Source of the DNA: Ottowia testudinis
GTDB taxonomy: Bacteria; Pseudomonadota; Gammaproteobacteria; Burkholderiales; Burkholderiaceae_C
Length of the DNA stretch: 64,000 nt
Assembly: GCF_017498525.1 (NCBI RefSeq)
Contig: NZ_CP071796.1
Coordinates: 4,030,001-4,094,000, forward strand
Direction: 5' to 3'
The notes beneath the pieces are model-generated. The model was not told the origin of the DNA. It ran no database searches and was given only the letters and a program-made list of their open reading frames with translations. Positions 2,957 to 54,955 of the stretch are shown one piece after another; position 1 is the first letter of the stretch; each line of letters begins with the position of its first letter. The translations under genes were made by a program, and so were the position numbers.

Positions 2957-2970
2957 ATTCGCCAAATGCT

Positions 2971-3025
2971 ATTTAATTCATAGCTGTCCGCGCTTTAAAC
3001 ACGTGGACAAACGCTCTGTTTGACC
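2971..3025 (+). repeat. Family A palindromic element, copy A1
   Basis: A divergent copy of the family A element begins about 15 bp after the response regulator stop. It keeps ATAGCTG, GCGCTT and an AACGC-like right arm. It fills most of the gap before the hemerythrin gene. Confidence 0.5.
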
Positions 3026-3042
3026 AATATTGGAGGCCCTTC

Positions 3043-3582
3043 GTGACCACACCCACCACCGCCGCGCCCCTGCTGTTCGACTTTCTCGACCACAGCCACC
3101 AGCAGCTGCAACGCCAGCTGGGCGTGCTCAAGCGCCTGGCCCGGCAATTGGCCCAGGACGAGCTGACCGCGCGCGAGCGCGACGAACTGCGGCAAGTCAT
3201 CGCCTGGTTCAACACCGACGCGCGCCAGCACCATCTGGACGAGGAAAAGCACGTCTTTCCCGCCCTGCTGGAGAGCAGCGACGAGCACGTCGTCCACACC
3301 ACGCGCCGCCTGCGGCAGGACCACGGCTGGATCGAGGAGAACTGGCTTGAACTGGCGCCCTCGCTGGAAGCCGCCGCGGGCGGCTACTCGTGGTTCGACC
3401 GCGACACGCTGGCGCACGGCGTGGCCGTGTTCGAGCAGCTTTGCCTGGACCACCTGGTGCTGGAAGAGTCGCTGGCCTACCCCGAGGCGCGCGAGCGCAT
3501 CCACCCCGCCGACCTGGAGCGCGCCGGCGTCGAGATGGCGCGCCGCCGCGCCGAGCGCGAGGCGCGATCGGCCAAGCGCTGA
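3043..3582 (+). CDS. Hemerythrin domain protein
   Basis: This 179-residue protein is a four-helix bundle expected to bind a di-iron site and oxygen-related ligands. Metal-ligand-type residues lie in DHSHQQ (about 16-21), HHLDEEKH (about 62-69), DHGWIEE and LDHLVLEE, in the HxxxE and HxxxH pattern of the family. It is a cytosolic stand-alone domain with no signal peptide. The start is GTG 3043, preceded by TGGAGG at 3031. It lies about 85 bp downstream of the haem-type two-component system in the same direction. I infer that it is part of, or controlled by, the same oxygen, NO or redox response. Confidence 0.85.
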   Translation: MTTPTTAAPLLFDFLDHSHQQLQRQLGVLKRLARQLAQDELTARERDELRQVIAWFNTDARQHHLDEEKHVFPALLESSDEHVVHTTRRLRQDHGWIEENWLELAPSLEAAAGGYSWFDRDTLAHGVAVFEQLCLDHLVLEESLAYPEARERIHPADLERAGVEMARRRAEREARSAKR

Positions 3583-7224: not shown

Positions 7225-9477
7225 TCAGCGCGACAGCGACAGCTGCTTCAACGCGCCCAGCACGTCAGCGACGCTGAGAATTTCGCTCAACACCAGCGGC
7301 GGCTGGCCGGGGGCTTGCAGCACGTACACCGGCACGCCGCTGCGGCCCAGCCGGGTCAGCTCGGCGGTGATGGCGGCGTCGCGCCGTGTCCAGTCGGCGC
7401 GCAGGGTTTGCACCTTGGCGGCGTCCAGCGCGGCCAGCACCTCGGGGTGGGCCAGCGTGGTCTTCTTGTTGTACTGGCAGGTCACGCACCAGGCGGCGGT
7501 GAAGTCCACGAACACCGGCTGACCGGCACCCAGTACCGTCTGCACGCGCGCGGCCGACCACGGCTGCCAGCGCGCGTCGGGCGCCTCGGCCGCCAGCGCG
7601 GCCGGCTCCACGGTTTTGATGACATTCGGGCCGAGAGTCGTAGCCAGGAAAGCACCTATAGCTATAGAAATAGTAGCAATCACGATCCGCGCCCGGCCCG
7701 ACAACCCAAGCGCCCACAGCACCAGCGCCAGCGTCACCAGCAGCGCCAGCAGCGCGCCCGCGCCGTCGATGCCTGTCTGCTGGCCCAGCACCCACAGCAG
7801 CCAGACGGCGGTGCCGAACATCGGGAAGGCCATGAACTTCTTGAACGTGTCCATCCACGCGCCCGGCCTGGGCAGCAGGCGCGCCACCGCCGGCCACCAG
7901 CTGGCCGCCAGGTAGGGCAGCGCCATCCCGAAGCCGATGGCGGCAAAGATCAATAGCGCCTGCACCGCAGGTAGCCCCACCGCCAGCCCGAGCGACGCAC
8001 CCATGAAGGGCGCGGTGCAGGGCGAAGCCACCGCCACGGCCAGCATGCCGGTCAGGAACGAATTGGCCACCGGATTGCGCGCCTCCAGCGTGGCCAGACC
8101 GCTGGGCAGAAAGTGGCCGAACTCGAACACGCCCGCCAGGTTGAGCCCGATCACGGTGAACAGCACCGTCAGCGCCGCCACCACGGCGGGCGATTGCAGC
8201 TGAAAGCCCCAGCCCAACTGCTGCCCCGCCGCGCGCAGCGCGAGCATCAGCGCGCCCAGCGCCAGAAACGACAGCACCACACCGGCGGTGTAGGCCAGGC
8301 CGCTGGTGCGGTGCGCGCGCCGGTCGTCGGCGTGCTGCGTGAAACCCAGCACCTTGATCGCCAGCACCGGAAACACACAGGGCATCAGGTTGAGCACCAG
8401 GCCGCCGATCAGCGCGCCCAGCAACGCCAGCGCGAAGGTGGCGGCGGGCACGGCGGTGGTACCCGCGGGCAGCACCGGCGCGGCGGCGCCGGCGTTGGCT
8501 TTCAACGCCGCCTCCAGTGCGGGCGAGACCACGGCCACCGGGTTGATGACGGGCCAGGTGCCGGTCACCGGCGCGTCGGCACGCCAGCCCTGGCCGCCCG
8601 CCACCAGCACCAGCGGCATGCGCTCGGGCGATTCGGCGCGGTCGGGCGAGACGGGGATGTCGGCCGTCCACACGTCGCCGTCCCATTGCTGGCGCCAGTC
8701 GCGCTCGCCCAGCGGCTGACCGGGCGGGGCCAGCGTGGCGGCGGTGACGATGACGTTGGGCGTTTCGGGAAACAGATCCAGCGGCTGCCCACGCACGCGG
8801 GCGGGCAGACCGGCCACGCGCACCGACAGGCGCTTGCCGCCGTCTTTCAGCGTCACCTGATGCGCGCCCTCAACAGCGATTGGCTGTGCCTTCAACGCGG
8901 CGTCAAACGCCGCGCCGTGCAGGGCCGTCGAGCTGCGCAGCGGAATCTTCAGCGCAAATTCGCCCTCCTGCGGAATGCACTCTTGCCGGCAGACCAGCCA
9001 GGTCGCCTTCAGCTTCACGTCGAGCGCATCGGCCATCACGCCGGGCTTGAATTCGGGCGTGACGATGAGTGGCACCGGCAGCAGCACCGTGCCTTCGTAG
9101 CCATAGTTGGCCAAGTGGCCGATGGGAATCTTCCTGGGCACAGGCCAGGCGATGTCGCCGGCCATCACACCGGGCGGCAGCGTCCACTGCAGTTCAGTCG
9201 GCATGCCGGAATCGCCGGCGTTCTTCCAATACGTGTGCCACTGGGGCGCATGGGTGATCTGCAGCCCGACCCACAACGGCTGACCAGCGACGGCCTCGGG
9301 CGCCAGACCCACGGGCACGCCCTGCGGCGCGTGGGCCAGCAGCGTGGCCTGCACCTGGTCGGTGCGCACCACTTCGGACTGAGAGTGATTCTGGGCATTG
9401 GCGCCCGTCCACCAAGCGCTGGCAGCCACAAAAAACGCAGCAATCAATGGGGTGGACAAGCGGCGCATGGAGTTCAT
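7225..9477 (-). CDS. DsbD/ScsB-like protein-disulfide reductase
   Basis: This 750-residue membrane protein passes electrons from cytoplasmic thioredoxin to periplasmic disulfides. It has a signal peptide (MNSMRRLST...GANA), an N-terminal DsbD-alpha-like domain with Cys in CRQECIPQEGEF, a central multi-helix domain with one Cys in LNLMPCVFPV and one in VASPCTAPFMG, and a C-terminal thioredoxin fold with WCVTC. ATG 9477 is chosen because it gives the signal peptide directly; GTG 9507 would add ten residues. The long N-terminal region suggests the ScsB branch, often linked to copper tolerance. A family-A-like sequence lies in-frame near residue 601. Confidence 0.88.
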   Translation of the reverse strand: MNSMRRLSTPLIAAFFVAASAWWTGANAQNHSQSEVVRTDQVQATLLAHAPQGVPVGLAPEAVAGQPLWVGLQITHAPQWHTYWKNAGDSGMPTELQWTLPPGVMAGDIAWPVPRKIPIGHLANYGYEGTVLLPVPLIVTPEFKPGVMADALDVKLKATWLVCRQECIPQEGEFALKIPLRSSTALHGAAFDAALKAQPIAVEGAHQVTLKDGGKRLSVRVAGLPARVRGQPLDLFPETPNVIVTAATLAPPGQPLGERDWRQQWDGDVWTADIPVSPDRAESPERMPLVLVAGGQGWRADAPVTGTWPVINPVAVVSPALEAALKANAGAAAPVLPAGTTAVPAATFALALLGALIGGLVLNLMPCVFPVLAIKVLGFTQHADDRRAHRTSGLAYTAGVVLSFLALGALMLALRAAGQQLGWGFQLQSPAVVAALTVLFTVIGLNLAGVFEFGHFLPSGLATLEARNPVANSFLTGMLAVAVASPCTAPFMGASLGLAVGLPAVQALLIFAAIGFGMALPYLAASWWPAVARLLPRPGAWMDTFKKFMAFPMFGTAVWLLWVLGQQTGIDGAGALLALLVTLALVLWALGLSGRARIVIATISIAIGAFLATTLGPNVIKTVEPAALAAEAPDARWQPWSAARVQTVLGAGQPVFVDFTAAWCVTCQYNKKTTLAHPEVLAALDAAKVQTLRADWTRRDAAITAELTRLGRSGVPVYVLQAPGQPPLVLSEILSVADVLGALKQLSLSR
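7628..7681 (-). repeat. Family-A-like sequence inside the DsbD-like gene
   Basis: On the coding (minus) strand the left half reads TGCTACTATTTCTATAGCT, close to the left half of the intergenic family A elements. The right half is much more diverged. It is read as IATISIAIGAFLATTLG in a membrane segment. The GCT codon is in the same frame as in the yggS, phaM and oxidoreductase copies. This is the weakest of the in-gene candidates. Confidence 0.35.
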
Positions 9478-9665
9478 TGGGGCAAGCAGGCAGCAAGGTG
9501 GGAGCACAACGCGGCCCTAAGGTTCCGCCATTCGCACGAACGTGCGCGCCATCGTCCTACGCCCGGAGGCTGTGCGAATTTCACGAAAGACGGACTTTTG
9601 ACCAGCACGATGTCACGATCTCGCAAAGCCCCAAAAACTCAAACAACACCTTGTTGGGCTGTTCT

Positions 9666-9703
9666 TTTGCGTCCTTCGCGAATCCTTCGCGCCTTCTGCG
9701 TCC
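9666..9703. repeat. Family C element, single arm
   Basis: The 261-bp gap 9478-9738 between the DsbD-like gene and the DUF411 gene has no ORF I support. Within it this segment repeats TGCGTCC/TCGCG units like the arms of the two long hairpins at 42.3 and 53.4 kb. I find no matching second arm nearby, so it looks like a decayed or half copy. Confidence 0.45.
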
Positions 9704-11051: not shown

Positions 11052-13010
11052 TCAGCCGCGCGCCAGCAGCGCGCTCACCTGTTCATGCAGCGCTTCGGGC
11101 GCGACCTGCGCGGCCAGCACCGCCGCGCCCACATTCAACCCCACCCGGCTGAACATGCCGCGTCTGAAGGGCCGCACCATGGCGCCTTCTTTCTCGATGC
11201 GGCTGAAGTACGAGCCCCACAGGTTGGTCAGCGCCATCGGCACCACGGGCACCCGCAGGCCATCGGCCCGCGCGCGTTCAAGGATCTTCATCACGCCGCC
11301 CTTGAACGGCTGCAGTTGCCCGTCGCGCGTGATGCCCCCTTCGGGGAAGATGCCAAGCAAATCGCCCTCGCGCAGCACCTCGGCCGCCTGGTCGAAGGCG
11401 CGCTGATAGGCCGCCGGATCTTCTTTTTGCGGCGCGATCGGGATGCACCTGGCCAACTTGAACAGCCACCCCAGCACCGGCACCTTGAAGATGCGGTGGT
11501 CCATGATGAAGCGGATCGGGCGCGGGCTGGCGGCCATCAGCAGCACGGCGTCGACAAAGCTGACGTGGTTGGCCACCAGCACGGCGGGGCCGCCGGTCGG
11601 AATGTGCTGCTCGCCCGTGACCTTGAAGCGGTACACCAGCCGGGTGAGAACCCACGAGACAAAACGCAGCAAGTATTCCGGCACCAGCATGAAGATGTAG
11701 AACGCCACCACCGCGTTGGCCAGCGCCACCACCAGGAACACCTGCGGGATGCTGAAGCCCGCCTTCAGCAACAGCCCCGCCATCACGCTGCTGGCGATCA
11801 TGAACAGCGCGTTCAGGATGTTGTTGGCGGCGATGATGCGCGCGCGGTGCGTGGGCGCGCTGCGCAACTGGATCAGCGCGTACATCGGCACGCTGTAAAT
11901 GCCCGCCGACAGCGCCAGCAACGCCAGATCGGCCATCACGCGCCAATGCGCGGGCTGGGCCAGAAAGCTGGTCAGCGTGTGTCCGCCGGCGACCGGCGGC
12001 AGGCCGCTGGCGGCGAAGTACAAGTCCACGCCAAACACCGTCATACCGATGGCGCCCAGCGGCACCAGGCCGATCTCGACGTGGCGGTGGCTGAGCATCT
12101 CGCACAGCAGCGAGCCGATGCCAATGCCGACGGAGAACACCACCAGCAGCAGCGAGGCGACCTGCTCGTTGCCATGCAGAACCTCCTTGGCGAAGGCCGG
12201 AAAATTGCCCAGGAACACCGCGCCGAAAAACCACATCCAGCTGATGCCCAGCAGTGAGCGGAACACCGCGATCTGCTCGTGCGCGAGCTTGAGGTTGCGC
12301 CAAGTTTCGGTCACCGGATTCCAGTTGATGACCAAGCCCGGATCGGTGGCCGGCGCGCGCGGCACGAACTGCGCCACGGCGCGCCCGGCCAGCGCCAGCA
12401 CCACGCAAGCGATGGCCACCGACGCGTGCCCCACCCGCGGCATCGCCACCAGAAGCCCGCCCACGACGTTGCCCAGCAGGATGGCGACGAAGGTGCCCAT
12501 CTCGACCATGCCGTTGCCGCCGGTCAATTCGCGCTCGTTCAGCACCTGCGGCAGATAGGCAAACTTCACCGGCCCGAAGAGGGTGGAATGCAACCCCATC
12601 AGGAACACGCAACCCAGCAGCACCGGCACGTTGGCGGCGATGAAGGCCCACGCCGCCAGCAACATGATGGCGATCTCCAGATCCTTGACCAGACGGATCA
12701 TCAGCGTCTTGTCGTACTTGTCGGTCAGCTGGCCGCTGGTGGCCGAGAACAGCAGAAACGGCAAGATGAACAGCGCGCCAATCGCCAGCCCCGCCATGGC
12801 CGGTGGCAGCCAGCCCACGCTGAGCTGGTAGGTCACCATCACCGTGAAGGCAAACTTGAACAGGTTGTCGTTGGCGGCGCCGGCAAACTGCGTCCAGAAG
12901 AAGGGCGCGAAGCGGCGCTGCTTGAGCAGCGCGAACTGGTTGGGCGCGCCGTGCGCATCGGTGGCGTGCAGGGGCGTGTCGGGCGCAAGGGCGCCGGGGT
13001 TCTGGCTCAT
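11052..13010 (-). CDS. MFS lysophospholipid transporter-acyltransferase fusion
   Basis: This 652-residue membrane protein joins a 12-helix major-facilitator domain (about 30-430, LplT-like) to a PlsC-type acyltransferase domain (about 450-645). The acyltransferase shows the catalytic motif NHVSFVD (HX4D) and FPEGGITRDG. Such fusions import lysophospholipids across the inner membrane and re-acylate them. Related proteins often carry a third AMP-dependent acyl-ACP synthetase domain (Aas), which is absent here. The start at 13010 is the only good one. It is convergent with the kinase remnant and downstream of the ceramidase-like gene on the same strand. Confidence 0.88.
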   Translation of the reverse strand: MSQNPGALAPDTPLHATDAHGAPNQFALLKQRRFAPFFWTQFAGAANDNLFKFAFTVMVTYQLSVGWLPPAMAGLAIGALFILPFLLFSATSGQLTDKYDKTLMIRLVKDLEIAIMLLAAWAFIAANVPVLLGCVFLMGLHSTLFGPVKFAYLPQVLNERELTGGNGMVEMGTFVAILLGNVVGGLLVAMPRVGHASVAIACVVLALAGRAVAQFVPRAPATDPGLVINWNPVTETWRNLKLAHEQIAVFRSLLGISWMWFFGAVFLGNFPAFAKEVLHGNEQVASLLLVVFSVGIGIGSLLCEMLSHRHVEIGLVPLGAIGMTVFGVDLYFAASGLPPVAGGHTLTSFLAQPAHWRVMADLALLALSAGIYSVPMYALIQLRSAPTHRARIIAANNILNALFMIASSVMAGLLLKAGFSIPQVFLVVALANAVVAFYIFMLVPEYLLRFVSWVLTRLVYRFKVTGEQHIPTGGPAVLVANHVSFVDAVLLMAASPRPIRFIMDHRIFKVPVLGWLFKLARCIPIAPQKEDPAAYQRAFDQAAEVLREGDLLGIFPEGGITRDGQLQPFKGGVMKILERARADGLRVPVVPMALTNLWGSYFSRIEKEGAMVRPFRRGMFSRVGLNVGAAVLAAQVAPEALHEQVSALLARG

Positions 13011-14110: not shown

Positions 14111-14842
14111 ATGAGCACCACCGCCGACCTTGTCACCGTTCTCAAGAAAGAGCTGAAAGCCGCCCAGATGACGTACGCCGACCTGGCGCGCGAACTGGGC
14201 ATGGCCGAATCCAGCGTCAAGCGCATGCTGGCCAAGGGCGACATGCCGCTGTCACGCATCGATGCGATCTGCCGCGCGCTCAAGCTCGACTTTGCCGAGT
14301 TGGCCCAGCGCGTGGCCGACGCGCAGCCCATGCTGAAAGAGCTGACGGCCGAGCAAGAGCGCGCCGTGGTGGCCGACGAAAAGCTGCTGCTGGTGGCCAC
14401 CAACGTGCTGAGCCAATGGACGCTGGAGCAGATGACCGCCGCCTACCGCCTGACCGAGGCCGAGGTGATCAAGTATCTGGCGCAGCTCGACCGCATCGGC
14501 GTGATCGAGTTGAAGCCCCTCAACCGCTACCGCCTGAAGGTGGCCAAGACGTTCCGCTGGCGACCGCACGGCCCGGTGATGCAGTACGTGCGCGAACACG
14601 TGGTGCTGGACTATTTCGGCGGCGGCTTCGACGGCTCAGCCGAAGGCCTGCTGCTGGTGCACGGCAGCGTCAGCCGCGCGCTGGCGCCCTCTTTTCTGGA
14701 GCGCCTGCAGCGCGTGGCACAGGACTTTGCGCAGCAGCACCAGATGGACCAGAAGCTGAAAGACAGCGACCGCGAAGGCTACACGCTGATGCTGGGCATG
14801 CGCAGCTGGGAGTTCGCGGCGTTCGCGCGGCTGCGCCGTTGA
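14111..14842 (+). CDS. XRE-family transcriptional regulator
   Basis: This 243-residue protein has an N-terminal helix-turn-helix of the Cro/C1 type (MTYADLARELGMAESSVKR, about 20-38). A longer C-terminal region contains a second winged-helix-like stretch (LTEAEVIKYLAQLDRIGVIEL). No metabolite-binding or membrane motif is seen. It is divergent from the ceramidase-like gene with 136 bp between the start codons, so it may control that promoter, but no operator was identified. Confidence 0.82.
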   Translation: MSTTADLVTVLKKELKAAQMTYADLARELGMAESSVKRMLAKGDMPLSRIDAICRALKLDFAELAQRVADAQPMLKELTAEQERAVVADEKLLLVATNVLSQWTLEQMTAAYRLTEAEVIKYLAQLDRIGVIELKPLNRYRLKVAKTFRWRPHGPVMQYVREHVVLDYFGGGFDGSAEGLLLVHGSVSRALAPSFLERLQRVAQDFAQQHQMDQKLKDSDREGYTLMLGMRSWEFAAFARLRR

Positions 14843-14853
14843 TGCTTTGTTTT

Positions 14854-14905
14854 TTATAGCTGCCTGCGCTTGCCACACAAGCGCCAGAGGCCGATTTCAT
14901 TGCCA
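14854..14905 (+). repeat. Family A palindromic element, copy A2
   Basis: A well-preserved copy starts about 11 bp after the XRE stop codon: ATAGCTGCCTGCGCTTG, a 3-5 bp loop, then CAAGCGCCAGAGGCCGATTT. It can form a short hairpin of CGCTTG with CAAGCG. The remainder of the gap to 15031 shows nothing else I recognise. Confidence 0.75.
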
Positions 14906-15031
14906 ACACCGGTTGGGGCGAATGCGATGAAACCCACCCTTCGGCAGCTCGCAATCCACCGCCCCTTGTGGGGTCTCGCCGCGCTCAACACCAGCCTGCG
15001 CGCCCGCCGGCAAGCCAGCAGGCCGCCAGAT

Positions 15032-16747: not shown

Positions 16748-17095
16748 TCAGCGGCCCAGCTTGAAGGGCGGCGGCAATGGCCAGCCCATGGTGGACTTGG
16801 CCGCGCCGTCCTTGGGCGCGGCGGCTTTCTTGGCGGGCGCTTTCTTGGCGGCAGGCTTGGCGCCACCGGCTTTCGGGGTTTTAGGCGCGGCTTTCTTCGC
16901 TGGGCGTTTGGTTACCGCCTTTTTCTCGGTGCTTTTTGAGCCCCCGGCGTTGTTCTGGCGCGCGCCAGCAGCTACCAAATCAGGAGCATTTTCAGTGCCG
17001 CCATCGGCTGCTGGCGCCGCCGCGCGGGCCGCATCGCGCATGGCGGTGGCGGCGATTTGCTGAAACTGCTGCGTCAGCGCGCCCCACCATTGCAT
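16748..17095 (-). pseudogene. phaM: phaM C-terminal fragment (out of frame)
   Basis: This frame encodes MQWWGALTQQFQQIAATAM followed by a Lys-Ala-Pro-rich tail with repeated PAKKA-like motifs, like histone H1 and the DNA-binding tail of PhaM. It is the expected continuation of the N-terminal fragment at 17074-17553 but lies in another frame; the two overlap by 22 bp. Restoring one base near 17095-17125 would give a protein of about 268 residues, close to the length I recall for Ralstonia PhaM. The ATG at 17095 has no good ribosome site, so separate translation is doubtful. Confidence 0.75.
16931..16990 (-). repeat. Family-A-like sequence inside phaM fragment
   Basis: On the coding strand it reads GCTCCTGATTTGGTAGCTGC then TGGCGC and a diverged right arm ending AACGCCGGGGGC. 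It is translated APDLVAAGARQNNAGG. The same frame and start (APDFEAARAVHANARA) occur in the yggS copy. It lies between the conserved PhaM part and the Lys-rich tail. Confidence 0.5.
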
Positions 17096-17553
17096 GGGGT
17101 CGGCCAGGCCCGGCGCGGATCCGGGGGCGGGGCCGCGGGCGCCGGCTTTTCCGCAGCCTGCGGGGCGGGGGCTGACGCAAACGGCCAGTCCTGGGGCGAG
17201 CCGGCCGCCGGGGCGTCTGTGTCGGCAGGCGCGTCGGGTTCGCCCTGGGTGGGCAGGGTAAATGCCTTGGCCACTTCGGCCATGTTCAGGTTCATGCTGG
17301 CCAGCGCGGCCAGCGTCATCTTCTGCACCTCCAGCGCCTGGATGGTGGCCTTGAGCGCAGTGCCGTTCTGCTCCAGCCAGAACAGCACGGCTTTCAGGTC
17401 CTTGATGCGCTTGTCCAGCTCTTCGATGCTGACGGTGGGCGTCACCCAGTTGGCCAGCCCCGCCAGCGCACCCTTGCCGCCACCGGCCAGATGGCCCAGG
17501 AAATCGAATCCCGGAATGCCGTTGCCGAAGGCAAAGGGGTTGGTATCGCTCAT
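17074..17553 (-). CDS. phaM: PhaM N-terminal part, truncated by frameshift
   Basis: These 159 residues match the start of PhaM, the protein that activates PHA synthase, attaches PHA granules to the nucleoid and controls granule number. Visible features are NPFAFGNGIPGFDFLGHLAGG, an amphipathic stretch (VSIEELDKRIKDLKAVLFWLEQNGTALKATIQ, written here as adjoining parts around residues 41-72) and an Ala-Pro-rich linker. The frame then ends in RRAWPTPCNGGAR, which is not PhaM-like, while the true continuation lies in the neighbouring frame. It is either a real inactivating indel or a sequence error in the GC-rich linker. If real, it leaves the synthase-binding part without its DNA-binding tail. 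Confidence 0.8.
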   Translation of the reverse strand: MSDTNPFAFGNGIPGFDFLGHLAGGGKGALAGLANWVTPTVSIEELDKRIKDLKAVLFWLEQNGTALKATIQALEVQKMTLAALASMNLNMAEVAKAFTLPTQGEPDAPADTDAPAAGSPQDWPFASAPAPQAAEKPAPAAPPPDPRRAWPTPCNGGAR

Positions 17554-31924: not shown

Positions 31925-31949
31925 GGCTCAACTCCTGAAATATGGATCA

Positions 31950-31998
31950 AACCGCTGCCTTGCCCTTGTGTGGCAAGCGCAAGCAGCTATCAAAAAGA
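31950..31998 (-). repeat. Family A palindromic element, copy A3
   Basis: On the minus strand it reads TTTTTGATAGCTGCTTGCGC then TTGCCACACAAGGGCAAG. It begins 8 bp after the stop of the DUF2946 gene at 32006, in that gene's direction, and ends shortly before the SCO start. Confidence 0.75.
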
Positions 31999-32005
31999 GA
32001 GTTTT

Positions 32006-32368
32006 TCAGGAGGAAATTGGCGGCGCACGCGCCTGCCAGGGCGGTGCGGCATGCCCGGCCACCCAGCGCGCGGGCGCCAGCGGCAGCGCAAACGGCGGCA
32101 GCGGTGGAGCATCGGGCGCCAGCACGGCCAAGGGTGGCGGCGCGCCCGTGGGAATGCACATGGGGCAGTGCATTTGCGCGGCGTTCAGATCCACCGCGCC
32201 CTCTTCGGTGTGCAGCACCAGCTTGCTGCCGCTGGCCGAACACACGATCTCCAGCGCCTGCGGACTGACCAGCGGCGCGGCCACCGCCACGCCGATCGAC
32301 AGCACGAACCACGCCAGCACCAGGCGGGCAATGTGGCGGACGCAGGCGGCGGGCAGCATGGCCGGCAT
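32006..32368 (-). CDS. DUF2946 family protein (second copy)
   Basis: This 120-residue protein has a hydrophobic N-terminal helix (IARLVLAWFVLSIGVAVAA). It then has the DUF2946 pattern EIVCSASGSKLVLHTEEG and MHCPMC, and a Pro-Ala-rich tail. It resembles the copy at 29820 in layout but not closely in sequence. The start is ATG 32368, or ATG 32359 nearby. It is the first gene of the copper module on this strand and is divergent from the GST gene. Confidence 0.68.
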   Translation of the reverse strand: MPAMLPAACVRHIARLVLAWFVLSIGVAVAAPLVSPQALEIVCSASGSKLVLHTEEGAVDLNAAQMHCPMCIPTGAPPPLAVLAPDAPPLPPFALPLAPARWVAGHAAPPWQARAPPISS

Positions 32369-41361: not shown

Positions 41362-42210
41362 ATGCAAGACACCTATATCCTGACTCTTTCCTGCCCAGAC
41401 CGCCCCGGCATCGTGCACGCCGTGTCGGGCTTTCTGGCCGAGCGCGGCGGCAACATCGAAGAGGCTGCGCAGTTCAACGACCACGGCACGGGCCTGTTCT
41501 TCATGCGCGTGCAGTTTTCTTGCCCGGCGGGCGATGCGGCGCCCTTGCGCGAGCAGCTGGGCGCGTTGGCCGAGCGCTTTGCCATGCGCTGGCAATTGCA
41601 CGAGCGCGCGCAGCCCATGCGCGCCGTGATCTTCGTCAGCCGCGAGGGCCATTGCCTGAACGACCTGCTGTTTCGCTGGAAATCGGGACTGCTGCCGCTT
41701 CACATCGCCGCCATCGTCAGCAACCACCGCGACTTCTATCAGCTGGCGGCCAGCTACAACGTGCCGTTTCACCACATCGCCGTTACCAAGGCCAGCAAGG
41801 CGCAGGCCGAGGAGCGGCAGTTGGAAATCGTCGACAGCGAAGGCGCCGAATTGGTGGTGCTGGCGCGCTACATGCAAGTGCTGTCGGACGCCATGTGCCA
41901 GCGGCTGGCCGGGCGCGCGATCAACATCCACCACAGCTTTTTGCCCAGCTTCAAGGGCGCCAAGCCGTATTACCAGGCGCACGACCGCGGCGTGAAGCTG
42001 ATCGGCGCCACCGCGCACTACGTGACGGCCGACCTGGACGAAGGCCCGATCATCGAGCAGGACGTGGCGCGCGTGGACCACACCGACACCGTGGAGGACT
42101 TGACGGCCGTGGGCCGCGACACCGAAAGCCAGGTGCTGGCGCGCGCGGTGAAGTGGCACGCCGAACACCGCGTGCTGCTGAACGGCCACCGCACGGTGGT
42201 ATTCAAGTAG
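41362..42210 (+). CDS. purU: Formyltetrahydrofolate deformylase PurU
   Basis: This 282-residue enzyme hydrolyses 10-formyl-THF to formate and THF, balancing one-carbon pools. An N-terminal ACT domain (LSCPDRPGIVHAVSGFL, 1-80) precedes the formyltransferase-like domain with INIHHSFLPSFKGAKPY and GATAHYVTADLDEGPI, which hold catalytic His and Asp. Length is standard. ATG 41362 is chosen because the ACT domain begins there. It is divergent from the CoA ligase. Confidence 0.95.
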   Translation: MQDTYILTLSCPDRPGIVHAVSGFLAERGGNIEEAAQFNDHGTGLFFMRVQFSCPAGDAAPLREQLGALAERFAMRWQLHERAQPMRAVIFVSREGHCLNDLLFRWKSGLLPLHIAAIVSNHRDFYQLAASYNVPFHHIAVTKASKAQAEERQLEIVDSEGAELVVLARYMQVLSDAMCQRLAGRAINIHHSFLPSFKGAKPYYQAHDRGVKLIGATAHYVTADLDEGPIIEQDVARVDHTDTVEDLTAVGRDTESQVLARAVKWHAEHRVLLNGHRTVVFK

Positions 42211-42289: not shown

Positions 42290-42396
42290 GGACGCAGAGG
42301 ACGCAAAGGATTCGCAGAGGACGCAGAAGTAAAACCAAATATTCTTTGAATTTTTTTGCGTCCTCTGCGAAATCTCTGCGTCCTCTGCGTCCTTTG
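42290..42396. repeat. Family C long hairpin (perfect-like arms)
   Basis: Two arms of about 36-40 bp, built from GGACGCAGAGGACGCA-like units, are inverted around a 26-bp AT-rich loop. By eye 33 of 36 paired positions match. This would form a very stable stem in RNA or single-stranded DNA. It fills the gap between purU and yggS, whose stop is at 42416. Confidence 0.85.
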
Positions 42397-42415
42397 TATC
42401 TTCTATTCAAGCCCG

Positions 42416-43111
42416 TCAGTCGCGCGGCATGGCGCGCTCGCCGAAGATGGCCGTGCCGATGCGCACCATCGTCGAGCCGGCGGCAATCGCCGCTTCCAGG
42501 TCGTCGCTCATGCCCATCGACAGCGTGTCCAGCGCCAGCCCTTCGGCATTCAAGTGGTCAAAAAGGGCTCTGGCGTTTGCGTGGACAGCGCGAGCAGCTT
42601 CGAAATCAGGAGCAGGCTCGGGAATCGTCATCAAGCCGCGCAGCTTCAGGCGCGGCAGCGCCGCGACGGCGCGCGCCAGCGCCAGCGCATCGCCAGGCGC
42701 GATGCCCGACTTGTTCAAGCCGCCATCGATGTTGACCTGAAGGCAGATGTTCAACGGCGGCCTGTCGGCGGGCCGCTGTGCCGACAGGCGCTCGGCGATC
42801 TTCAGCCGATCCACGGTCTGCACCCAGTCGAAGTGCTCGGCCACGCCGCGCGTCTTGTTGCTTTGCACCGGGCCGATGCAGTGCCACGCCAGCCCCAGCT
42901 CCCGCAGCGCGGTGATCTTGTTCACGCCTTCCTGGATGTAGTTTTCGCCAAAGGCGCGCTGGCCCGCCGCGGCGGCGGCGCGCACGGCATCGGGGCCGAA
43001 GGTTTTGGACACCGTCAGCAGCGTGACTTCCTCCACGTCGCGGCCCGCGCGCTCACACGCTGTAGCAATCCGTGCACGCACGTGTTGGAGGTTGCCGGCG
43101 ATCGTCGTCAT
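42416..43111 (-). CDS. YggS-family PLP homeostasis protein
   Basis: This 231-residue protein has a single alanine-racemase-type barrel that binds pyridoxal 5'-phosphate and controls its free level; it has no known catalytic activity. The PLP Lys is in LLTVSKTFGPD (about residue 36). The family block LSMGMSDDLEAAIAAGSTMVRIGTAIFG closes the protein. It is divergent from pilT with 39 bp between, the arrangement common in proteobacteria. A family-A-like stretch encodes residues 167-182. Confidence 0.94.
   Translation of the reverse strand: MTTIAGNLQHVRARIATACERAGRDVEEVTLLTVSKTFGPDAVRAAAAAGQRAFGENYIQEGVNKITALRELGLAWHCIGPVQSNKTRGVAEHFDWVQTVDRLKIAERLSAQRPADRPPLNICLQVNIDGGLNKSGIAPGDALALARAVAALPRLKLRGLMTIPEPAPDFEAARAVHANARALFDHLNAEGLALDTLSMGMSDDLEAAIAAGSTMVRIGTAIFGERAMPRD
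42561..42615 (-). repeat. Family-A-like sequence inside yggS
   Basis: On the coding strand it reads CTCCTGATTTCGAAGCTGCT, CGCGCT, a short spacer, and GCAAACGCCAGAGCCC. This is close to the full family A element. It encodes APDFEAARAVHANARA. Phase and orientation equal those of the copies in phaM, the DsbD-like gene and the oxidoreductase gene. Confidence 0.55.
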
Positions 43112-44202: not shown

Positions 44203-44330
44203 CCCCCAGGCTCCACATGCTTCGCATTGTTTCGCCACCCCCCTTCCGGGGGCGCTCCCAGCGGGCGGGCCAAGCCCTTCCGCGGGAGCCCTCGGGCGGC
44301 CTGCTCCGCGGCCATTCGATTGATCGCCGC
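44203..44330 (+). repeat. Family B repeat, copy B1
   Basis: This copy of about 125 bp begins 9 bp after the pilT stop. It shows CCCCAGGCTCCAC, a CCGGGGGCGC hairpin, and the core CGGCCTGCTCCGCGGCC near its end. It is closest to copy B4. Confidence 0.75.
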
Positions 44331-44349
44331 AACTGCGTTTTTGAGTGAA

Positions 44350-44396
44350 ATATGGCCCCAGCGCTTGTGCATCGAGCGCTGGCAGCTATCGTTTAA
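44350..44396 (-). repeat. Family A palindromic element, copy A7
   Basis: On the minus strand: ACGATAGCTGCCAGCGCT, spacer, ACAAGCGCTGGGGCC. This copy is opposite to the flanking pilT and pilU genes, one of only two intergenic copies not aligned with the gene before it. It ends about 40 bp before pilU. Confidence 0.7.
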
Positions 44397-44435
44397 GTAG
44401 CGTGCCAAGCGGCACCGTTGAGAAGGGACACCGTC

Positions 44436-46699: not shown

Positions 46700-46833
46700 C
46701 CCCCGATCACGGGCCGCGCAGCAAGCGCTTCCAAGGCAGCGGGCCGCGGCGCCGGCGACCCCAGGAACGCCGTGGTCAGGTCTGCGCCGCCCGCCAGCGT
46801 TACGCTCTGGCGAAAAGACGGCTCAGGGACGGA

Positions 46834-48239: not shown

Positions 48240-48370
48240 ATTTAGGAGCAGCACAAGCTCCCCCTGTGTCGCCTGCAGCGCCTTCCCCCAGAGGGGGCCA
48301 CACCAGTGGCCGGTGCAAGCCCGGCCGCGGTGTTCGCGTGTCACCTGCTCCGCGGCGGTCTGATGTGGCC
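48240..48370 (+). repeat. Family B repeat, copy B3
   Basis: CTCCCCCTGTGTCGCC, a CTTCCCCC-AGA-GGGGG hairpin, AGTGGCCGGTGCAAGCCCGG and the diverged core CACCTGCTCCGCGGC lie between the yraN stop and the SIS gene start. Confidence 0.72.
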
Positions 48371-53400: not shown

Positions 53401-53503
53401 GAACGCAAAGGTCGCAAAGATTGCGCAAAAGACGCAAAAAATTCATCAAGAAAACTTCTGCGACTTCTGCGACTTCTGCGAAACCTCTGCGCCCTTTGCG
53501 TTC
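53401..53503. repeat. Family C long hairpin, second copy
   Basis: The left arm GAACGCAAAGGTCGCAAAG... pairs with the right arm ...CTCTGCGCCCTTTGCGTTC around a loop near 53440-53456. By eye about 32 of 39 positions match. The units differ in sequence from those at 42290 (CGCAAAG against CGCAGAG), so it is a relative rather than a recent copy. It lies between two convergent genes. Confidence 0.8.
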
Positions 53504-54825: not shown

Positions 54826-54955
54826 CCAGCGTGGCTCCCCCTTATCAAGTGGCCGCGGAGCAGGCCATGCCGGAACGCCGTGGCCGGACCTGCGCCGGCC
54901 ACTGGTGTTGTCCCCCTCCGGGGGAAGGCGCGCCAGCGCCTCAGGGGGGTACAGT
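54826..54955 (-). repeat. Family B repeat, copy B5
   Basis: On the minus strand: CCCCCCTGAGGCGCTGGCGC, CTTCCCCCGGAGGGGGACA, GGCCGGCGCAGG and the core TGGCCTGCTCCGCGGCC. It fills most of the 206-bp divergent gap between the MFS and radA starts. Confidence 0.78.

Follow-up and report, generated by a model that had tools for sequence, protein, structure and literature searches.

Does the palindromic stretch inside yggS of Ottowia testudinis represent a repeat that entered the gene, or native coding DNA that has come to resemble one? The gene lies within the window, by which we mean the whole stretch of 64,000 nucleotides that was analysed, in a genome of 4.32 Mb on a single contig. A sequence-only reading had seen a dispersed palindrome, family A, translated in frame in yggS and again in the tail of phaM, and had proposed that a mobile palindrome was being domesticated as peptide after the manner of the Rickettsia palindromic elements (RPE).

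Family A in the genome and in the window

Family A is a quasi-palindromic DNA motif of ∼65 bp. Its core, ATAGCTGCNNGCGCTTG, occurs 618 times genome-wide against two occurrences of the reversed control, with one mismatch permitted. From this genome, 120 intergenic copies outside the window went into a profile, which was scanned against the window together with 40 spread 20-kb stretches, 864 kb in all or 20% of the genome. This sample gave 239 matches of at least 15 bits, which extrapolates to ∼1,195 for the whole genome, an estimate of ∼1,200 copies. By gene calls from a simple codon-score script, a non-standard tool, 62 of the 239 matches lie more than 70% inside genes, 150 lie less than 30% inside and 27 straddle gene ends. 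The copies in the window are collected in Table 1.

Rfam at the gathering threshold gave no family corresponding to family A within the window. A BLAST search with one copy, a weak query given that copies share only ∼58% identity, found 4 of 72,556 plasmid records and none of 50,697 phage records. Among the matches listed in the open-access PMC literature, there was no description of the family A repeat or of a Comamonadaceae uptake motif.

Table 1. Copies of family A in the window and the two host genes named in the sequence-only reading
Positions	Strand	Feature	Score or basis
2958..3045	+	Intergenic copy	29.5 bits
9358..9449	-	Motif inside 5′ part of DsbD-type gene (7226-9477, minus)	21.9 bits; Pfam matches of the gene: DsbD_N, DsbD_TM, Thioredoxin_7
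14825..14920	+	Intergenic copy	60.8 bits
16748..17553	-	phaM, frameshift-split into overlapping ORFs 17074-17553 and 16748-17095	Gene name from the sequence-only reading
16939..17007	-	Motif in variable tail region of phaM	22.2 bits, E 4e-5
31934..32022	-	Intergenic copy; same-orientation counterpart at matching place in relative G026 (55 bits)	45.5 bits
35981..36059	+	Intergenic copy; same-orientation counterpart at matching place in relative G026 (42 bits)	33.1 bits
38718..38792	+	Intergenic copy	39.0 bits
39584..39675	+	Intergenic copy	36.1 bits
42206..42293	+	Intergenic copy between gene ending at 42210 and yggS	34.5 bits
42416..43111	-	yggS (pyridoxal phosphate homeostasis protein), 231 aa	ORF; best PDB match 1w8g, E 1.8e-73
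42555..42617	-	Motif inside yggS, coding strand, in frame, without added residues	29.7 bits, E 2e-7
44325..44412	-	Intergenic copy	52.7 bits
49707..49796	-	Intergenic copy	49.9 bits
51016..51105	-	Intergenic copy, highest score in window	61.2 bits
53315..53396	-	Intergenic copy	42.4 bits
56340..56430	+	Intergenic copy	58.6 bits
60401..60472	+	Intergenic copy	43.9 bits

Other repeats were seen in the same DNA. A second dispersed family of ∼105 nt is represented at L208:8731-8861 and at window positions 54844-54948, 48260-48364 and 46701-46801; relatives have dozens of matches to it, including one in G026 immediately downstream of yggS. A GCGTCCTCTGCG-like unit characterizes further repeats, at 42290-42400 (just downstream of yggS), 9662-9703 and 53453-53503. 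A CRISPR-like array with 95 exact repeats spaced at ∼66 nt occupies L197:11612-18085 (∼483.6-490.1 kb of the genome), and the window has an Rfam match to Bcj11 (Burkholderia RNA 11) at 12177-12298, minus strand, 76.5 bits.

The yggS patch has no added residues

The presence of family A on the coding strand of yggS (APDFEAARAVHANARA) and in the phaM tail (APDLVAAGARQNNAGG) was borne out. With the profile built from intergenic copies, both patches scored above all shuffled-coding controls. On the sense strand of yggS, the best score was 7.1 bits among 2,000 synonymous within-gene shuffles and 8.7 bits among 2,000 sequences drawn from genome codon usage, and the real score was never reached (0/2,000 in each set). 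For phaM, the corresponding counts were also 0/2,000 and 0/2,000, with best scores of 17.0 and 8.5 bits.

The proposal that the yggS residues are an insertion did not survive alignment. PDB entry 1w8g, named YGGS and which we take to be the protein of E. coli, aligns without gaps across the patch. Of 136 aligned family rows, 111 show no net change of length around the patch, and the Comamonadaceae rows that lack the patch mostly hold the same residues at the same place. The 72 patchless rows, taken from genomes with less than one copy per Mb, conserve F184 in 62, A167 in 60, D169 in 55 and P168 in only 39. A motif of at least 12 bits was found at the yggS position in 31/136 rows and elsewhere in the gene in 0/136. 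The bearing rows include some titled Ottowia, Rhodoferax, Curvibacter, Hylemonella and Polaromonas, as well as Acidovorax at only 12.2 bits, and by inspection the patch codons of the bearing rows fall in one register.

It is in the codons that bearing and patchless rows differ. GCT encodes residue 167 in 28/31 bearing rows as against 8/72 patchless rows, and AGA is used at residue 181 in 19/31 bearing rows. At residue 173, alanine is present in 30/31 bearing rows, while the 72 patchless rows have 33 alanines and 30 glutamines. For bearing rows, the frequency of A or T at third positions is 0.64 within the patch as opposed to 0.20 over the remainder of yggS; for patchless rows the two values are 0.25 and 0.20. 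A few genomes enter these codon tallies, the copy-number tallies and the yggS alignment twice under two ids. Within the genus, codon identity is no higher inside the patch (0.685) than in the rest of yggS (0.693), and in the same set the patch codons are rarer and A/T-ending (0.48 vs 0.14). Some Acidovorax rows have raised third-position A/T yet weak scores (L121: 0.65 vs 0.20, 7.0 bits). As judged from these alignments, the native residues of YggS mostly stay, the codons appear shifted towards the repeat and nothing is inserted. That codons changed in place without added protein suggests that the DNA sequence itself is maintained.

Family A copies in other genes

In-gene copies of family A are a genome-wide fact at the DNA level, to which the yggS and phaM patches belong. 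The 748 called genes of the sample hold 65 matches of at least 15 bits, against a mean of 2.3 (maximum 5) in ten synonymous shuffles; ten codon-order shuffles and the reversed genes gave no match at this threshold. Among 57 copies lying fully within called genes, 24 are sense and 33 antisense, and by frame class the counts are 9, 13 and 2 (sense) and 24, 3 and 6 (antisense). The sequence-only reading had stressed that the yggS and phaM copies share strand and frame. Both indeed read GCT CCT GAT TTN in one register on the sense strand, but this carries little weight as all six frame classes are used.

The phaM tail is less widely shared among relatives. Only the window genome and relative G013 (33.4 bits), of 25 rows, exceed 12 bits; the score is 11.0 in G019, about 8 in G017 and G026 and below 5 in the other 20 relatives. 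The ORF holding the tail had no Pfam match. phaM is split upstream of the patch, where a frameshift lies close to a C-rich run. A single frame of 222–338 residues is present in 22 of 24 relatives; the other two, G001 (L063) and G018 (L071), appear to be shifted at roughly this position. The frameshift may reflect sequencing error or phase variation.

Comparison of sequences points to two modes among host genes: in place, as in yggS and tsaD, and as added residues, as in MetH and probably TrmJ and GluQRS. In-frame insertion into proteins, as originally proposed, thus fails for yggS; the repeat nevertheless stands in frame in many genes, with extra residues in MetH and probably in TrmJ. The TsaD motif scores 28.9 bits in this genome and up to 39.6 in a relative. 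All 26 genus genomes with a match (29 searched) have 35 residues over the TsaD patch, and the alignment with PDB 3zet is gap-free there, only the codons being motif-like. MetH has 17 additional residues with the motif: the 10 bearing rows have 42 residues (one has 45), 6 of 25 rows are empty at 25 residues, and the gap to PDB 9ssp is also 17 residues. The MetH loop is variable in itself, since the other 9 rows hold 26–49 residues of different sequence. In G014 (L334) and G021 (L339), the inserts in this loop are also in frame and repeat-like but of another sequence, rich in CTCTCCC and GGGAGAGGG; because these differ from family A, the loop appears to accept several kinds of repeat.

TrmJ rows with the motif have 36–42 residues (89 in G014), low-copy rows have 22–46, with 5/9 at 22–27, and the PDB relative 4cnd is without ∼16 residues, in three pieces around the motif site. 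TrmJ thus probably carries the motif as inserted residues, judging by the aligned lengths. The same is probable for GluQRS, which has 84 residues around the motif compared with 47 in 1nzj. For a flavoprotein copy, insertion and in-place change are ambiguous. ArgS (18.1 bits) and a thiolase (17.1 bits) show no gap relative to their PDB relatives, at scores reachable by chance.

Pairing, genealogy and placement of the copies

In 174 intergenic copies of at least 20 bits, pairing between the two arms was 0.722 against a column expectation of 0.719, and in 51 in-gene copies of at least 20 bits it was 0.653 against 0.661; there was no arm covariation in either set. An RNA hairpin function is disfavoured by this lack of covariation and by the use of both strands in genes. 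The column information of in-gene and intergenic copies correlates with r = 0.92, and the motif holds about 60 bits across 68 columns.

The mobility assumed by the sequence-only reading was unsupported: same-locus duplicates aside, sequences drawn independently from the profile would resemble one another almost as much as the dispersed copies do. The mean pairwise identity of intergenic copies is 0.584, and 0.583 after column shuffling. Identity exceeded 0.80 in 13 of 22,996 pairs of all copies, 11 of them within one locus and two dispersed (0.80 and 0.82), where shuffled columns predict 0.74 pairs. Under a plain column shuffle, the identity spread and nearest-neighbour identity of the real copies were higher. 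When same-locus duplicates were dropped, leaving 201 copies, and columns were shuffled only within a score class, the identity spread was 0.0642 vs 0.0639, pairs above 0.75 identity numbered 34 vs 31.0 ± 8.7, and nearest-neighbour identity was slightly high at 0.700 vs 0.686 ± 0.002. Some old copying among dispersed copies may therefore have taken place. The only clear near-identical groups in the sample were local motif duplicates, at L202:6195-6623, L204:27-4547, L214:2176-4655 and L231:12510-15672.

Intergenic copies at matching places in relatives have an identity of 0.613, compared with 0.560 for unrelated copies (18 pairs, Mann–Whitney p 0.005), and their flanks are near random (0.459 vs 0.426). 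Place-matched in-gene pairs are more alike (0.744, 15 pairs). For the L208 stretch, a counterpart of at least 12 bits was present in at least one of six relatives for 3/5 in-gene and 6/6 intergenic copies. In gaps of 80–250 nt, copies occupy 25/36 convergent, 46/166 tandem and 5/45 divergent gaps; orientation relative to tandem genes is even (48 and 51). This picture fits a DNA recognition motif kept in place and not a family now spreading by copying.

Patch presence follows genomic copy number

Grouping 124 yggS orthologs by copies of family A per Mb, the patch is present in 0/41 genomes with none, 1/32 with less than 1, 6/19 with 1–3, 12/17 with 3–20 and 10/15 with at least 20. The Spearman correlation is 0.75, and 0.70 among the 102 orthologs outside the genus. 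Of the genomes with at least 3 copies per Mb, 22/32 have the patch and 10/32 lack it. Six paralogue-like rows (40–45% identity) and 6 of the 136 aligned rows that fell outside the count table were excluded; the genomes of L086-L088, L096 and L165 were uncounted, and G013 is absent from the copy-number counts. Counting used the core of the window genome itself, which underestimates copy number in relatives whose consensus has shifted.

Similar distributions were seen within the genus at the other host genes. A TsaD motif of at least 12 bits occurs in 10/16 genomes with at least 3 copies per Mb vs 0/9 below, the TrmJ motif in 14/17 rows vs 0/9 (G014 contributing two rows) and the MetH motif in 10/15 vs 0/10.

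Kinship among the genomes confounds the association of the patch with copy number: the independent well-supported pairs number only 6, of which on average 2.4 agree, 0 disagree and 3.6 show no difference (median p 0.5). A quick, weakly supported yggS tree of 120 rows, 8 duplicate ids having been removed, needs 14 patch changes, with gain and loss indistinguishable.

Comparison with known systems

RPE were found in 19 reading frames, and in-frame copies of ERIC and Correia elements have also been reported (PMC2229807). RPE, in-frame ERIC and the 107-bp Correia elements resemble family A in being short palindrome-like repeats that are both intergenic and in frame in conserved proteins, and MetH and probably TrmJ are RPE-like cases here. 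Family A differs from RPE in that yggS and tsaD gain no residues, in that its copies show almost no genealogy and in its length, ∼65 bp compared with 105–146 bp for RPE.

Uptake sequences offer another comparison. According to excerpts of PMC1939737, 65% of copies in H. influenzae and 35% in N. gonorrhoeae lie in ORFs. Like the DUS of Neisseria and the USS of Haemophilus, family A occupies permissive sites on both strands, intergenic as well as in ORFs (62/239 in genes here), and maintenance in situ without insertion at orthologous coding sites, as in yggS and TsaD, is a further likeness. The family A motif is much longer. A short-core uptake motif was considered and rejected: with profile matches of at least 8 bits masked, the 12-/13-base cores alone show no excess in genes (AGCTGCTYGCGC 1.09-fold; GCTGCTYGCGCTT 0 vs 1.2 expected). 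Single 8-base pieces of the motif outside profile matches ranged from 0.41- to 2.11-fold. DUS are described as absent from acquired DNA (PMC2397512). For family A such absence is only hinted at, with 4/40 of the 20-kb stretches lacking the motif and counts correlating weakly with GC (rho 0.31, p 0.05) and codon typicality (rho 0.28, p 0.08).

A transformation-linked drive is described for Neisseria and Haemophilus uptake sequences in passages of PMC2397512 and PMC1939737. Passages of PMC4212676 report that Verminephrobacter transformation is sequence-specific and that Acidovorax temperans is transformed only by DNA of its own species, and name no motif. ComEC was of no use as a marker of the process, being present in 75/80 genomes and in 34/34 with low contamination and a completeness of at least 90%.

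REP/BIME elements with RAYT transposases form hundreds of hairpin-like copies, mostly intergenic and scarce in divergent gaps; by this general description family A is alike in hairpin-like look, number, intergenic bias and scarcity in divergent gaps. It differs in that a quarter of its copies are in genes, the arms do not covary and there is no clear RAYT neighbour. The genome has 20 Y1_Tnp matches, some of which plainly belong to repeated insertion sequences. Of three candidates that occur at a single place, two fall below the Pfam cut-off; within 4.0–4.5 kb the three have 0, 3 and 1 copies of the motif scoring at least 20 bits, against a background of ∼1.2 per 4.5 kb, so nothing clear links family A to a RAYT.

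Discussion

We lean towards family A being a candidate DNA recognition motif that is maintained in situ at ∼1,200 sites, coding DNA included. The native YggS and TsaD proteins would have happened to be encodable by motif-like DNA, and synonymous and mild amino-acid changes, such as alanine for glutamine at residue 173, would have shifted their codons towards the motif. We infer that the force acts on the DNA sequence itself, as selection for a bound site or as a drive linked to transformation, like that of uptake sequences. In MetH and probably TrmJ, where loops are tolerant, the motif is carried as extra residues too. We favour this account because the match is at the DNA level, without added residues and at the same position in several genera; because the patch is absent from nearly all genomes with less than one copy per Mb; and because there is next to no genealogy and no covariation, with both strands and all frame classes in use. 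Counting against it, at ∼60 bits and 68 columns the motif is long for a bound site, its 12- and 13-base cores alone show no excess in genes, the insertions in MetH and probably in TrmJ and GluQRS suit a mobile element better, and there remain the nearest-neighbour excess, the confounding by kinship, the 10 of 32 high-copy genomes without the patch and a codon identity that is not raised.

A more specific version, tentative and on present comparisons rather doubtful, is that in Comamonadaceae the motif is what gives natural transformation its sequence specificity, or is read by some other process acting genome-wide; it would then be a long counterpart of the Neisseria and Haemophilus uptake sequences, written by codon choice and loop residues. 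This version fits the sequence-specific transformation reported for Verminephrobacter and the same-species transformation of A. temperans. The length of the motif, the lack of enrichment of its 12–13-base core alone and the failure of ComEC to separate high- from low-copy genomes count against it.

How else might yggS have acquired the patch? Insertion of a mobile palindrome in frame, domesticated as peptide like the Rickettsia elements, has a clear precedent in MetH and probable ones in TrmJ and GluQRS; we nevertheless consider it very improbable for yggS, as YggS and TsaD have no extra residues relative to their PDB relatives, much the same residues run through the site in patchless YggS rows, and hardly any copying is seen among the dispersed copies. 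A single ancient event in the yggS of a Comamonadaceae ancestor, either a templated replacement or an insertion with compensating deletion, inherited and unevenly decaying since, deserves more attention, though we judge it unlikely. It would account for the single position shared by rows titled Ottowia, Rhodoferax, Curvibacter and Polaromonas, for a tree with 14 changes in which gain and loss look alike, and for the Acidovorax rows in which third-position A/T is raised and scores are weak. Such decay sits poorly with the persistence of rare A/T-ending codons in a gene otherwise 20% A/T at third positions and with the lack of these codons where the genomic family is scarce, and a foreign replacement is hardly compatible with the retention of native residues.

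Ectopic gene conversion, homogenizing the dispersed copies and capturing look-alike native stretches in yggS and tsaD, would explain why the family stays near its consensus while flanks are near random between relatives, and why in-gene copies share the intergenic column profile. The mean pairwise identity of the copies is only 0.57–0.58, which is too low for ordinary homologous recombination, and there are no clusters of near-identical dispersed copies; we regard conversion as improbable. That the matches reflect chance or codon bias is scarcely credible. Synonymous shuffles do yield a few matches of at least 15 bits, and the weak ArgS and thiolase cases may be of this kind, but the real excess is 65 to 2.3, codon-order shuffles and reversed genes have none, and for yggS itself, at 0/4,000, the synonymous, codon-order and reversed controls rule chance and codon bias out.

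In-frame repeats in proteins are already known from RPE, ERIC and short Correia elements, and MetH and probably TrmJ add to them. What appears to be new is the recolouring in place of conserved genes by a 65-bp motif, across genera and with protein length constant. One caution follows for sequence annotation: in-frame repeat matches need not mean insertions. If our reading is correct, a selfish-looking palindrome would be a maintained DNA signal, strong enough for yggS, tsaD and other housekeeping genes to show it in their codons and in a few of their residues. It would also explain how related species can share the location of such repeats in the absence of recent copying, and would provide a concrete candidate for the unnamed transformation specificity reported in the family.
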